NCBI RefSeq assembly: GCF_000155635.1
Contig: NZ_DS990556.1
Location: 1,533,637-1,597,636, forward strand
Direction of reading: 5' to 3'
Length of the DNA: 64,000 bases
DNA from: Cyanobium sp. PCC 7001
GTDB lineage: Bacteria > Cyanobacteriota > Cyanobacteriia > PCC-6307 > Cyanobiaceae
Each line of letters begins with the position of its first letter. Position 1 is the first letter of the stretch. Positions 29,283-34,749 of this stretch are shown in pieces. The notes below the pieces were generated by a model, which was not told the DNA's origin, made no database searches, and saw nothing but the letters and a program-made list of their open reading frames with translations. The position numbers were made by a program, and so were the translations under genes.

Positions 29283-29326
29283 GCCGTTTCCGCGGCATGC
29301 CCACACCACCTTGAAGCTCCGGGTTG

Positions 29327-30424
29327 ATGGACCCCTCCCTGCTGCATGACCGGCTTGAGGCCGCCCGGCGCACCTTCGAGACCCTGGAGAGGCAGCTGGC
29401 CGATCCTGCCGTGGCCAGCAATCCGGACCAGCTCCAGGCCATCGCCAGGGAACGGGCTCGCCTGGAACCGCTGGTGCTCGATCAGCGGCAGCTGCAGAAA
29501 CTCCTGGCCGAGGAGGCCGACGCGCGAACCCTGCTGCGCGACCATCGCGGCGATCGGGCCATGGAGGAGTTGGCGAGCGAGGAGCTGAAGCAGCTCGCCG
29601 AGCGGATCCACAGCCTCAGAACGTCCCTCACGATTGCCCTGTTGCCTCGTGATCCCCGCGACGAGCGCAGCGTGATGCTCGAGATCAGGGCCGGTGCCGG
29701 TGGCGACGAAGCGGCCATCTGGGCCGGTGATCTGGCACGGATGTACGAGCGCTACGCCCAAAGCGTGGGCTGGCGGGTGGAGCCGGTGAGCGCCTCGGAA
29801 GCCGAACTGGGCGGCTACAAGGAGCTGATCCTCTCCATCCGGGGCGAGGGCGTGTTCAGCCAGCTGAAATTCGAGGCCGGGGTGCACCGGGTGCAGCGGG
29901 TGCCGGCCACCGAATCCCAGGGACGCGTCCACACCTCCACCGCCACGGTGGCGGTGATGCCGGAGGCGGATCCGGTGGAGGTGCAGATCGAGCCTGGCGA
30001 TGTGGAGATCAGCACGGCCCGCTCCGGCGGCGCGGGAGGGCAGAACGTGAACAAGGTGGAAACGGCGGTGGACCTGCTGCACAAGCCCAGCGGCATCCGG
30101 GTGTTCTGCACCCAGGAGCGCTCCCAGATGCAGAACCGGGAGCGGGCCATGGAGATCCTGCGGGCCAAGCTCTACGAGCGCCAGCTGGCCGAAGCCAACG
30201 CCAGGGAGCGCTCCGCCCGCCTCGCCCAGGTGGGCAGTGGCGATCGGAGCGAGAAGATCCGCACCTACAACTACAAGGACAACCGCGCCACCGACCACCG
30301 GCTGGGTCGCAATTTCAGCCTGGAGCCCGTGCTCAACGGTCAGCTGCAGGATGTGATCGGTGCCTGCATCGCCGCGGACCAGGCCAGGCAGCTGGACGAG
30401 CTGGCCGCCGACGTGAGTGCGTGA
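29327..30424 (+). CDS. prfA: Peptide chain release factor 1
   Basis: A 365-residue RF1 that reads UAA/UAG stops. The hydrolysis motif GGQ is in [21 protein letters not shown]; other class I release-factor blocks are [22 protein letters not shown] and [23 protein letters not shown], and the C-terminal [17 protein letters not shown]. The ATG at 29327 is preferred over the adjacent TTG at 29324. Commonly follows rpmE in cyanobacteria. Confidence 0.97.
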
Positions 30425-30460: not shown

Positions 30461-30988
30461 TCAGGCGGCCCGTTCGTCTGCCAGGACCTCAAGGCCGATG
30501 AGGTATTTGGCCCATTCGTGGTGCCTCCCGGCCCGCAGATGGCGGGTGGCTTCATAGCCCAGCCCGCTCGCCGGACGGTGGGGAGCCCGCAGCAGCACCA
30601 TGCCGGCTTCCCGCGGCGTGCGGTTGCCCTTGCGGACATTGCAGCTGAGGCAGGCCGTGGTCACGTTCTCCCAGCTGTCGGTACCGCCGCGGCTGCGGGG
30701 CACCACGTGATCGACCGACAACTTCTCACCGCTGTAGCCGCAGTACTGACAGCAGTGACCATCGCGGTGAAAGAGATTGCGGCGTGTGAGCGGCAGCTGC
30801 CGGTAGGGAACCCGCACGAAGTGACGCAGCCGGATCACCGTGGGAAGCAGAAGATCCGGGCGGATGGCTCGGTTCCGGTCATGTTCCAGTCCCTCGGCCT
30901 TGCCCTTGAGCAGCATCACCAGCGCCCGCTTCCAGGTGGTGATGTTGAGCGGTTCATAGGACGCATTGAGGACGAGAACGTGCCCCAT
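30461..30988 (-). CDS. HNH endonuclease
   Basis: A 175-residue nuclease-fold protein: MGHVLVLNASYEPLNITTWKRALVMLLKGKAEGLEHD precedes the zinc knuckle CCQYCG and the catalytic SVDHVVPRSRGGTDSWENVTTACLSCNVRKGNRTP (DH...N...H-like with CxxC). This type is conserved across cyanobacteria as a stand-alone HNH protein of unknown target. ATG at 30988 matches the family start; the ORF continues upstream only through non-coding sequence. Divergent from the murF-alr fusion with 92 bp between starts. No methylase or other restriction partner is adjacent. Confidence 0.85.
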   Translation of the reverse strand: MGHVLVLNASYEPLNITTWKRALVMLLKGKAEGLEHDRNRAIRPDLLLPTVIRLRHFVRVPYRQLPLTRRNLFHRDGHCCQYCGYSGEKLSVDHVVPRSRGGTDSWENVTTACLSCNVRKGNRTPREAGMVLLRAPHRPASGLGYEATRHLRAGRHHEWAKYLIGLEVLADERAA

Positions 30989-31080
30989 CGCCGCAACCAG
31001 GATCGCCAAAATGCTAACGAGGCACATCCTCCGGGTCGGTGTCGTCCACGACCAGGCCTTCCGCCGGACCGTCCTGCACC

Positions 31081-33570
31081 ATGACCCTGCCCGCACCCCG
31101 AGAGCTGGCCGCCCTGCTGGACGGCGAGCTGCGCGGCACCCCGCCTGAGCAACCGCTGCGGGCTGTGGCGATCGACTCGCGGCGGGTGCTGCCCGGCGAT
31201 CTCTTCGTGGCGCTGGGGGGGCGCCACTGCGACGGCCATGACTTCGTGGCGCAGGCCGAAGGGGCCGGGGCGTCGCTGGTGGTGCTGCGGCGGGACCGCT
31301 GCCCGGACAGCGGCCCGGGACCGGGCTGCGCCCACCTGCTGGTGGCTGATCCGCTGCTGGCCCTGCAGCGTCTTGCCGCCTGGTACCGCCGCACCCACAT
31401 CCGCAGGGTGGTGGCGGTCACCGGCAGCAATGGCAAGACCGTGGTCAAGACTGCGCTGACGGCCCTGCTGGCGGGCCGTTTCCGGGTGGCCTCCAGCCCC
31501 GGCAGCTGGAACAGCCAGGTGGGCGTGCCGCTGGCGGTGCTCACGGCTCCGCCCGGCACCGAACTGGGGGTGTTCGAGGCCGGCATCTCGGCGCCCGGCG
31601 AGATGGAGCGCCTCGAGGCGATCCTGCAGCCCGACCACGGCGTGCTGGTGAACGTGGGTCTGGCCAATCTCGGCAGTTTCGGCAGCCGCGCGGTGACGGC
31701 ACGCGAGAAGCTGCGCCTGTTCCAGGGCATGGATGCCCACAGCTGGGTGATCGCCCCGGACGACCCGCTCGTGAACGCCCTGCCCCTGCCCTGCCGCCGC
31801 ATCCACCCCGGCGCCGGGCCGCCACGGCTGCTGGGTCAGCGCTCCCGGGGGAACGGCCTCCTGCTCCAGCTCGATCTGGGCGGGTGCCAGGCCCAGGTGA
31901 CGGTGCACACCCGCTCCCGGCCTCTCGTCGACGACCTCCTGATCGCCCTGACCGCCGCCCACCACCTGGGGGTGCCCGCGGCGGAGATGGCGGAGGTGCT
32001 TCAGGACTACACCTTCGGGCCGACGCGCATGGAGACCTGGCGGACGCCGGAAGGCATCACGATCATCAACGACACCGCCAGCGACGACCCGCTCTCGGTG
32101 CAGACCGCCCTGGCCACGGTGGCCGCCTTTCCCGAAGGGGGCCGCCGCCTGTTCGTGTTCGGCGGGATGGGAGATCTGGGACCCTGCGAACAGCGGGAGC
32201 ACGCGCTGATCGGGCGAATGGCGGCCGAACAGGGCTTCTCAGGGCTGCTGCTGCTGCCGCACCCGGCCCGCAGCCACACTGCCGCCGCCTGGAACGGCTG
32301 CCACCCCGCCCAGGCGGCCCAGGAACTGGCCGACACCGCCGCCCTGCGCGAGCGGATCCGCCAGATGGCCGAGCCGGGCGACACCGTTCTGCTCAAGGGT
32401 GCCGCCCGCCAGGAGCTGAGCAGCGCGGCCCGCGCGATCTGGGAATCGATGGCACCCCGCCGCCTGCTGGTTGATCTCGACGCCATCCGCGACAACATCA
32501 CCCGCTTCCGGGCCCTCTGCGGCCCCGAGGTTGCGATCCTGGCGGTGCTGAAGGCCTGGGCCTACGGCACCGAGCTGCCGCGGCTGGCGGCGGCCCTGCA
32601 GGACAGCGGCATCGACTGGATCGGGGTCTCCGCCGCCGACGAGGGTGCCGTGATCCGACGGGCCGGGGTGCACCGGCCGGTGCTGGTGATGCTGATGGAC
32701 CCCGATGAGGTGGACAAGGCGGTGCGCTGGCGCGTGACGCCGCTGATCTATTCGCTGCCCTTCGCCCAGGCGCTGGTCAGGACGCTGCAGTCGATGGGCG
32801 CGCACCTGGAGGTGCACCTGGAGATTGAGACGGGCATGGGTCGCCTCGGTGTGGCGCCGGAGGAGGCCCTGGCCGCCGCCAGGCTGCTGCGCGATTCCGG
32901 GGTCGTGACCGTGACAGGCGTGATGACCCATCTGGCCGGCGCCGATGATCCCGCCGCCGATGACGAGACCCGCGCCCAGCTGGAGCGGTTCGATGCGGTG
33001 ATGGCCAGGCTGCATCAGGAACTGGGCACGCCCCTGCTGGTGCACGCGGCCGCCACCTCGGGGGCCGTGCGCTTCCCGCAATCCCGTTACGGCATGGTGC
33101 GGCTGGGCCTGGGGCTGTTCGGCCTGCATCCCTCACCAGCCGTGGCTGAGGCGATCGAACTGGAGCTGGCGGTGGCGTTCATCAGCCGCCTGGTGCAGGT
33201 GCGGGAGTACGGCAGGGGGCAGCGGATCGGCTACAACGGCACCTACGTGGTCAGCGCGGAACGCCAGCGGATCGGCATCGTGGCCGCGGGCTACAACGAC
33301 GGTGTGCCCTGGCGATTCAGCAACCGCGGCGAGGTGATGATCCAGGGTCGGCGCCTGGCCGTGCTCGGCCGGGTGTCAATGGACTCGATGGCGGTCGATC
33401 TGGATCCGTTGCCCGAGGCGACGGTGGGCGATGAAGTGCTGATCTTCGGAGCCTATGAAGGCCAGGTGCTGCGTCCGGAGCAGGCCGCCCTCCAGGCGGG
33501 CACGATCCCCTACGACCTGCTGGTGCAGGTCGATGGCAGACGGGTGCAACGGATCTTCCGGGGCGGCTGA
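31081..33570 (+). CDS. MurF-type Mur ligase fused to an alanine racemase domain
   Basis: One uninterrupted 829-residue frame. Residues ~1-455 are a Mur ligase: P-loop VVAVTGSNGKTVVKTAL, FEAGISAPGEMERLEAIL, NVGLANLGSFGSRAVTAREKLRLF and the end DTVLLKGAARQEL. Residues ~460-829 are a fold-type III PLP racemase: RRLLVDLDAIRDNI, PLP lysine in LAVLKAWAYGTELP, GVSAADEGAVIRRAGV, ETGMGRLGV, MTHLAGADDPAADDETR, MVRLGLGLFG, the second-base tyrosine region RIGYNGTYVV and GRVSMDSMAVDL. MurF adds D-Ala-D-Ala to UDP-MurNAc-tripeptide; Alr makes D-Ala. The EAGISxPGEME wording and the fusion itself recall Bacteroidetes MurF-Alr proteins. Oddities: KANAYGH is KAWAYGT, the MurF AH is AN, and DSYNANP is DTASDDP. 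Start ATG at 31081. Domain identity is firm; activity and pathway role are not. Confidence 0.85.
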   Translation: MTLPAPRELAALLDGELRGTPPEQPLRAVAIDSRRVLPGDLFVALGGRHCDGHDFVAQAEGAGASLVVLRRDRCPDSGPGPGCAHLLVADPLLALQRLAAWYRRTHIRRVVAVTGSNGKTVVKTALTALLAGRFRVASSPGSWNSQVGVPLAVLTAPPGTELGVFEAGISAPGEMERLEAILQPDHGVLVNVGLANLGSFGSRAVTAREKLRLFQGMDAHSWVIAPDDPLVNALPLPCRRIHPGAGPPRLLGQRSRGNGLLLQLDLGGCQAQVTVHTRSRPLVDDLLIALTAAHHLGVPAAEMAEVLQDYTFGPTRMETWRTPEGITIINDTASDDPLSVQTALATVAAFPEGGRRLFVFGGMGDLGPCEQREHALIGRMAAEQGFSGLLLLPHPARSHTAAAWNGCHPAQAAQELADTAALRERIRQMAEPGDTVLLKGAARQELSSAARAIWESMAPRRLLVDLDAIRDNITRFRALCGPEVAILAVLKAWAYGTELPRLAAALQDSGIDWIGVSAADEGAVIRRAGVHRPVLVMLMDPDEVDKAVRWRVTPLIYSLPFAQALVRTLQSMGAHLEVHLEIETGMGRLGVAPEEALAAARLLRDSGVVTVTGVMTHLAGADDPAADDETRAQLERFDAVMARLHQELGTPLLVHAAATSGAVRFPQSRYGMVRLGLGLFGLHPSPAVAEAIELELAVAFISRLVQVREYGRGQRIGYNGTYVVSAERQRIGIVAAGYNDGVPWRFSNRGEVMIQGRRLAVLGRVSMDSMAVDLDPLPEATVGDEVLIFGAYEGQVLRPEQAALQAGTIPYDLLVQVDGRRVQRIFRGG

Positions 33571-33606: not shown

Positions 33607-33628
33607 CAGGTAAGCTCCTGGTGCCGCT

Positions 33629-33717
33629 GGAGAGGTGGCTGAGTGGTTGAAAGCGGCTCCCTGCTAAGGAGTTACAGGAGGCAACTTCTGTCGAGGGTTC
33701 GAATCCCTCCCTCTCCG
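33629..33717 (+). tRNA. tRNA-Ser (anticodon GCT)
   Basis: 89 nt, class II. Acceptor GGAGAGG/CCTCTCC, anticodon loop CTGCTAA with anticodon GCT, a long variable arm (acaggaggcaacttctgt), and T-arm GAGGG-TTCGAAT-CCCTC. CCA is not encoded. Confidence 0.95.
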
Positions 33718-33784
33718 TTTCCCTGAGTCCCTGGTTCCCAGCCAAGCCACCCACCGGCCCGGCATGGCATGGCCAGCTCTGTGC

Positions 33785-34717
33785 TCAGTCCTGCCGACAC
33801 AGCCTGGCCAGATGGGAGGCGATCTCCGGCAGCAGGGCGGTGTCGGCCGCCTGCCTGGCCCCCTCGCTGAACACGCTCAGCAGGAAGGGGCTGTGGCCTT
33901 CGGCCTCCACGTAGGCCGTGTCGTGACGGGCCTGGCTCATCCAGCCGGCCTTGCTCCAGAGGCGGGCCCCCTCCGGCAAGCCGGCACCGAGGAAGCCATC
34001 CACCTGATTCTCCGGATCCGCCGCGCGGCTGGCGGGATCCAGGGGGCGCCGCAGCACCTCCCGCATCCGCCCGCAGGCCGGGGGGGACACCAGCGCCGAG
34101 GCGATCACCCCCAGCAACAGCCGCGAGGCCGCATCGGTGCTGAGGCTGTTGCGGTTCTCCAGGCCAGGCCCGTAGAAGGCCCGCTCGCGGCCGTAGGGGC
34201 CATCCCCCCAGGTTTTCTGGCAGGCATTGCAGCCGCGGAGTTCGCTCCAGGCCATGCCGGCGAGCCATTCGTTCACCAGCTGGCGCTGGGCCACCCAGGC
34301 CTGCATGCGCTCCGGGGGGAGCTCCGGACCGCTGGTGGTGCCGCTGAGCAGATCCACCACCAGGCCGGTGGCGTCGTTGCTCGAGTCGCGGATCATGTCC
34401 TCCAGGGCACGCCGCAGTTCCGGGCCGTCCTCGAGCAGCCCGTCCTGCAACCAGGCCTCGGCCGCGATCAGGTACACCAGCTTCACCACACTGGCGGGGT
34501 AGCGCTGACGATCCCCCCCCCAGCCGGCGCCGGGCGGGTGCCGCTGCCAGTACGCCTCGGCACCGCCCTCCAGCGCCGCGCCGATCTGGGATCGGTCGAA
34601 GCGCACCCAGGTGATCGACAGCTGCTGGGCCAGCCCCGGACGCCCCTGCAGCTCCAGCAGTCCGACCAGGTCGCTCAGCACCTGCTCCATCGGCGGGTCC
34701 GGGCTGTAGAACGCCAT
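33785..34717 (-). CDS. Class A beta-lactamase-like serine hydrolase
   Basis: A 310-residue penicillin-recognising-fold hydrolase. The nucleophile motif SxxK is in YPASVVKLVYLIA, an SxN-like motif is in MIRDSSNDATGLVVDLL, and a KxG motif is WSKAGWMS. The segment GLENRNSLSTDAASRLL resembles the class A region before helix 8. No signal peptide or lipobox is seen, so it appears cytoplasmic, unlike secreted beta-lactamases. Members of this family are widespread in cyanobacteria without proven drug resistance. It ends about 70 bp from tRNA-Ser and is divergent from the NlpC/P60 gene (32 bp between starts). Action on peptidoglycan peptides is inference. Confidence 0.75.
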   Translation of the reverse strand: MAFYSPDPPMEQVLSDLVGLLELQGRPGLAQQLSITWVRFDRSQIGAALEGGAEAYWQRHPPGAGWGGDRQRYPASVVKLVYLIAAEAWLQDGLLEDGPELRRALEDMIRDSSNDATGLVVDLLSGTTSGPELPPERMQAWVAQRQLVNEWLAGMAWSELRGCNACQKTWGDGPYGRERAFYGPGLENRNSLSTDAASRLLLGVIASALVSPPACGRMREVLRRPLDPASRAADPENQVDGFLGAGLPEGARLWSKAGWMSQARHDTAYVEAEGHSPFLLSVFSEGARQAADTALLPEIASHLARLCRQD

Positions 34718-34749
34718 CACTGCCGGCTCCTGCTGTGGCGAGATTAGGT

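Follow-up and report, generated by a model that had tools for sequence, protein, structure and literature searches.

A MurF-alanine racemase fusion occupies the alr slot of a picocyanobacterial chromosome and was probably acquired from outside the cyanobacteria

Proteins that carry two enzymes of cell wall synthesis in one chain are known from the MurC-Ddl of Chlamydia and the MurB-MurC of Verrucomicrobium, which were tested by complementation or assay (PMC4803751). A fusion of MurF with alanine racemase (MurF-Alr) resembles them in this respect but joins other partner enzymes, and we found no paper on it in the open-access literature, a search in which most subscription journals lay outside the scope. 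The bifunctional MurF/Alr of Bacteroidota (NF008897, PRK11930) has, over its full length, the same domain order as the protein studied here. In the eight Bacteroidota isolate genomes examined, the fusion stands beside a separate murF, and seven of the eight have no separate alr. Thus, an extra MurF is usual where MurF-Alr occurs and does not set the cyanobacterium apart. Of 22 genomes, only that of Arachidicoccus ginsenosidivorans contains two Ala_racemase_C frames: next to its fusion it has a shorter one of 295 amino acids (L165, G438:C1:1466426-1466806). The fusion described here, from Cyanobium sp. PCC 7001, differs from those of Bacteroidota in its low identity to them (about 30%), in the loss of the tyrosine of a D-x-Y-N motif, and in its position at the cyanobacterial alr locus. 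Fusions in Myxococcota are nearest to it in the trees of both halves and share 53-64% identity and the same motif loss, but they retain His196, have other neighbours and, in three carriers, occur without a murF in the dcw cluster. The cyanobacterial alr shares the locus of the fusion and presumably its role, but is about 33% identical to the Alr half, lacks a MurF half and belongs to a different clade.

We analysed a stretch of 64,000 nucleotides of the Cyanobium chromosome (contig NZ_DS990556.1), here called the window. An unbroken reading frame spans 31039-33570 on the plus strand, and from the ATG at 31081 it yields a fusion gene of 829 codons (31081-33570) with matches to NF008897 and Pfam families. 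Pfam domains follow in the order Mur_ligase, Mur_ligase_M, Mur_ligase_C, Ala_racemase_N (PF01168, E 1.5e-58) and Ala_racemase_C (PF00842, E 6.4e-33). Residues 13-826 align to positions 12-819 of the 822 of NF008897 (E 1e-166), with a score below the curated equivalog cut-off (556 versus 804 bits). The MurF-like half (residues 1-448; 31081-32424, plus strand), with UDP-binding N, ATPase middle and C domains recognized by Pfam, TIGR01143 and the AlphaFold model, falls just under the curated TIGR01143 cut-off (269.7 versus 288.6 bits), which the fusions of the relatives G051 and G084 exceed. The racemase half (residues about 462-829; 32464-33567, plus strand), the sole PF00842 match in the genome, scores above the curated cut-off of TIGR00492 (279.7 versus 168 bits) and has 5irp as its best PDB match. 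Residues 446-461 read LSSAARAIWESMAPRR, and eight cyanobacterial fusions agree at about three-quarters of the 13 junction positions (449-461). A preliminary description of this DNA had reported a single frame running from a Mur ligase into a racemase with no stop at the junction, and an EAGISxPGEME signature in the MurF half. Both are borne out, the first by the frame, Pfam and NF008897 and the second by the motif EAGIS-PGEM, which like GSNGKTVVK and SPGSWNSQ is common to fusions elsewhere. A sequencing error hiding a stop, the doubt raised there, is excluded by independent cyanobacterial genomes that carry the same fusion at 63-86% identity. In an AlphaFold model built from 32 fusions (mean pLDDT 88.6), the racemase half matches solved alanine racemases (5irp, TM 0.87 on target) and the MurF half matches the MurF structures 4cvk, 4cvm and 4qf5 (4qf5, TM 0.83-0.84), with the relative placement of the two halves uncertain at a pTM of 0.62. 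Promoter and terminator scans found none.

The racemase half contains the residues expected of a working enzyme. The PLP Schiff-base lysine K491 (in VLKAWAYG, located by alignment to 5irp; 32551-32553, plus strand) and the second catalytic base Y718 (33232-33234, plus strand) are invariant in 32 fusions, as are R588, R674, M767 and D768. The window protein thus has the PLP lysine, the tyrosine base and the arginine for the PLP nitrogen, together with both racemase domains. A domain search of the genome (2.83 Mb, estimated to be 99.99% complete) finds Ala_racemase_C once, inside the fusion, and other proteins with a racemase N domain include ones that read as YggS-like and LysA-like. Because its catalytic residues are invariant and no other gene has the full domain set, the C-terminal half is very probably the alanine racemase of the cell. 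Its dN/dS is 0.22-0.36 in ten pairs. This half holds 15 residues unique to the window strain, compared with 4 common to the sisters. Also with the N domain, but without the C domain, is an ornithine-racemase-like PLP gene (L002; G000:C1:2225646-2226299, minus strand; 275 bits against a cut-off of 480), which could conceivably be a minor racemase.

The preliminary description had placed the fusion in addition to a canonical murF and alr, and this holds for only one of the two genes. A canonical stand-alone murF lies elsewhere in the chromosome (L005, 368 bits), but there is no separate alr, and since the only Ala_racemase_C domain of the genome lies in the fusion, the fusion replaces alr. It is an extra MurF and the sole alr of this genome. 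The other four carriers in the family likewise have one Ala_racemase_C each, inside the fusion, and a separate murF, whereas G072 and G099 have the domain in a separate alr. In the survey with TIGR01143, every fusion-bearing genome has another MurF or MurF-like gene. MurC-, MurD-, MurE- and FolC-looking genes are also present in the window genome. A third Mur-ligase-like gene (L007; G000:C1:984710-985915, minus strand) has MurF-like middle and C domains (226 bits) and no canonical UDP-binding N domain.

The residues of the MurF half give a mixed picture. The Walker-A lysine K119 (GSNGKT; 31435-31437, plus strand) is present in every one of 58 aligned sequences (MurF halves and MurFs), and the Walker A motif, N144, E166, K210 (the carbamylated-lysine position of Mur ligases; 31708-31710, plus strand), R316, D331 and the UDP-domain motif are kept. 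At residues 330-337 (32068-32091, plus strand), NDTASDDP replaces the MurF motif D-x-Y-N-A-N-P. Of 15 cyanobacterial fusions, 14 have Ala-Ser in place of the Tyr-Asn of this C-domain motif; the motif is also altered in Myxococcota fusions, and the tyrosine is kept in the Bacteroidota and proteobacterial types. The histidine of an A-H-L motif, present in 57 of the 58 aligned sequences, is Asn196 (codon AAT; 31666-31668, plus strand) in the window strain alone. This histidine of Mur ligases helps to hold magnesium, and its loss should weaken catalysis; a search of the open-access literature for a magnesium-binding histidine of Mur ligases found nothing. The half is under purifying selection (dN/dS 0.23-0.46 in ten pairs), and relaxed selection was not seen in the window strain (11 unique changes against 13 in the sisters).

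A rival explanation is a truly bifunctional enzyme, with a MurF half that works as a second MurF and a fusion that couples D-Ala supply to D-Ala-D-Ala ligation. It would fit the purifying selection, the lack of excess change in the window strain, the MurF fold of the model, and the retention of Walker A, E166, K210, R316 and the UDP-domain motifs. Against it stand the lost Tyr-Asn motif of the cyanobacterial and Myxococcota fusions and the lost His196 of the window strain; moreover, the product of Alr is not a substrate of MurF, and direct channelling would skip Ddl. Three Myxococcota carriers (G431, G432 and G477) have no murF in the dcw cluster, which would favour an active half as their sole MurF, but this argument is undone by a membrane-anchored MurF-like gene beside ddl in all three. 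The protein has an N-terminal hydrophobic, probably membrane, region and is encoded directly upstream of the D-Ala-D-Ala ligase gene (L191, L192 and L215:10943-14375); it may be the MurF of these organisms. On balance we regard ligase activity of the MurF half as doubtful and a fully bifunctional enzyme as rather unlikely. Instead of a second full MurF, the half is more probably a ligase that is auxiliary or weakened, or else a domain that tethers the protein to the Mur/MraY complex, above all in the window strain with its His196Asn change.

The fusion and the native alr are two occupants of one chromosomal slot. Compared as far as each contig extends, cyanobacterial loci have the order truA, rplM, rpsI, rpmE, prfA, an HNH gene on the minus strand, alr or the fusion on the plus strand, a serine hydrolase on the minus strand and an NlpC-type gene; one exception, L055, keeps the HNH gene and has different genes beyond. 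In the window, synteny identifies prfA (29324-30424, plus strand) as the conserved left neighbour, followed by the HNH-domain gene (30461-30985, minus strand), and a Beta-lactamase2-family serine hydrolase (33785-34720, minus strand) as the conserved right neighbour. A tRNA-Ser(GCU) lies directly downstream of alr or the fusion in 13 of 13 loci scanned, fusion or native, and forms the right anchor here (33628-33718, plus strand). The HNH gene beside alr is kept across the family, and its HNH part resembles IscB and Cas9 models weakly, with scores under the cut-offs.

A survey of picocyanobacteria, proposed with the preliminary description, finds that the fusion recurs but is scattered. It occurs patchily in 5 of 121 genomes of the family (the window genome, G030, G062, G051 and G084), and the best matches in the others are stand-alone alr genes with about 24-36% identity to the racemase half. 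A wider set of 339 genomes that spans the phylum contains just two carriers, the window genome and G062, which both belong to this family. A scan of one genome per species by exact short peptides, which misses relatives that lack those peptides, returned 12 named cyanobacterial records at 63-86% identity, including Cyanobium sp. Morenito 9A2, FGCU52 and Prado107; more than a dozen picocyanobacterial genomes carry the fusion. Beyond the cyanobacteria, the same scan found two high-GC "proteobacterial" metagenome-assembled genomes (MAGs; 60-63%), three MAGs with a proteobacterial type (42-44%) and Bacteroidota (27-34%).

The scattered occurrence is accompanied by discordant histories of the gene and its flanks. 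A tree of prfA and the HNH gene places the window strain with the native-alr genomes G072 and G099 (100/99), whereas its fusion groups with those of G030, L050 and L060 (100/99), and the label of fusion or native requires six changes on the flank tree. Along the chromosome, the window best matches G072 in most 100-base steps through prfA and the HNH gene; from about 30.9 kb it is closer to G030 than to G072 (90 versus 73%), and past the tRNA-Ser it is again closer to G072 (84-89 versus 61-84%). The left switch lies in the 5' end of the HNH gene and the spacer (about 30.85-31.0 kb), and on the right, similarity switches on both sides of the tRNA. Switches at these two places are what exchange of a cassette by homologous recombination would leave, and because the affinities of flanks and fusion differ and the edges fall at the HNH gene and the tRNA, such recombination appears to have been anchored there. 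An alternative is that one old displacement was followed by repeated restoration of the native alr, with no spread of the fusion. The six changes could reflect gain as well as loss, and the cyanobacterial fusions have a single origin in the Alr tree, both of which would suit restoration. In the window strain, however, the recombined stretch brackets the fusion and sits inside flanks of a native-alr lineage, and we consider restoration unlikely.

The trees of the two halves point to an origin outside the cyanobacteria. In the racemase-half tree, the cyanobacterial fusions form one clade (100/98) next to the fusions of G431, G432 and G477 (99/97); three more fusions from the order of G431 follow outward, then the proteobacterial type, with Bacteroidota deepest, and the native cyanobacterial Alr lies apart from the fusions. 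The MurF-half tree agrees overall, but does not resolve how the two groups of cyanobacterial fusions branch relative to the three closest Myxococcota sequences. Fusions and stand-alone proteins are split in both trees (100/98 and 100/99), and both halves share descent with the Bacteroidota fusions. One stand-alone Myxococcota Alr, L204 of G458, has a long branch that lies among the fusions in the Alr tree with unresolved placement; this protein may derive from a fusion whose racemase half became separate. The order of G431 carries the fusion in 6 of 63 genomes (G431, G432, G477, G469, G486 and G501). The carriers are MAGs, and the order is assigned to Myxococcota because of its counts of MYXO-CTERM signals, 15-51 per genome in ten of its genomes; no such signals were found in the cyanobacterial, proteobacterial-type, Bacteroidota or control genomes searched. 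From the nesting we infer that transfer ran from Myxococcota to cyanobacteria, a direction that depends on the root and on the six carriers among 63 genomes. Base composition gives no foreign sign (the fusion has 72% G+C and a GC3 of 0.90, the window 69% G+C, and prfA a GC3 of 0.88), so the fusion has either ameliorated or come from an equally GC-rich donor.

Horizontal acquisition, as the preliminary description had proposed, is supported by the trees of both halves and by approximately unbiased (AU) tests. Neither half falls inside the normal cyanobacterial clades, the placement named there as speaking against acquisition; both group with Myxococcota fusions. The label "Bacteroidetes-like" stands for the deep ancestry of the protein but not for its nearest source. 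Direct transfer from Bacteroidota, where the architecture is standard and which the full-length NF008897 match would suit, is highly improbable given the identity to the window fusion (27-34%, against 53-64% for Myxococcota) and the rejection of a clade of cyanobacterial and Bacteroidota fusions alone (AU test, p 2.4e-5). A home-made fusion of cyanobacterial murF and alr would account for the position at the alr locus, but in the trees both halves are well separated from the native genes, grouping of the cyanobacterial fusions with native Alr is rejected (AU test, p 3.6e-10) and the native murF lies elsewhere, so that we give this origin almost no credence. An assembly or contamination artefact, for which the MAG status of the donor-order genomes might be cited, is practically excluded by the named strains Morenito 9A2 and FGCU52, the single-contig genome G062 and the common synteny.

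We consider it probable that the fusion is a xenolog of alr. A type of MurF-Alr fusion standard in Bacteroidota would have reached freshwater picocyanobacteria via a Myxococcota-like donor and taken the alr slot, with loss of the native gene. A cassette of about 2.7 kb would then have moved between picocyanobacterial lineages by homologous recombination, with the HNH gene and tRNA-Ser(GCU) as anchors. The C-terminal half would supply D-Ala to the D-Ala-D-Ala ligase, and the MurF step would be carried out by the separate murF, with the N-terminal half, probably auxiliary, kept by selection. A more speculative reading, to which we assign a low probability, is that in the branch formed by Myxococcota and cyanobacteria the MurF half has taken on a new function, either as a Mur ligase with an altered substrate site or as a domain that regulates D-Ala supply by sensing ATP or by tethering. 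The alr locus would then be an exchangeable site with two alleles, of which the foreign one alters wall metabolism, and predators or alanine racemase inhibitors might exert the selective pressure.

The product of alanine racemase is an essential precursor of the wall, and frequent swapping of such a housekeeping gene is not expected. Here, two versions of alr from different phyla, one of them fused, occur at one position in closely related genomes, and the recombination edges can be seen on both sides. This natural allele swap is a test bed for the purpose of the attached MurF domain, as every carrier surveyed has another murF or murF-like gene.
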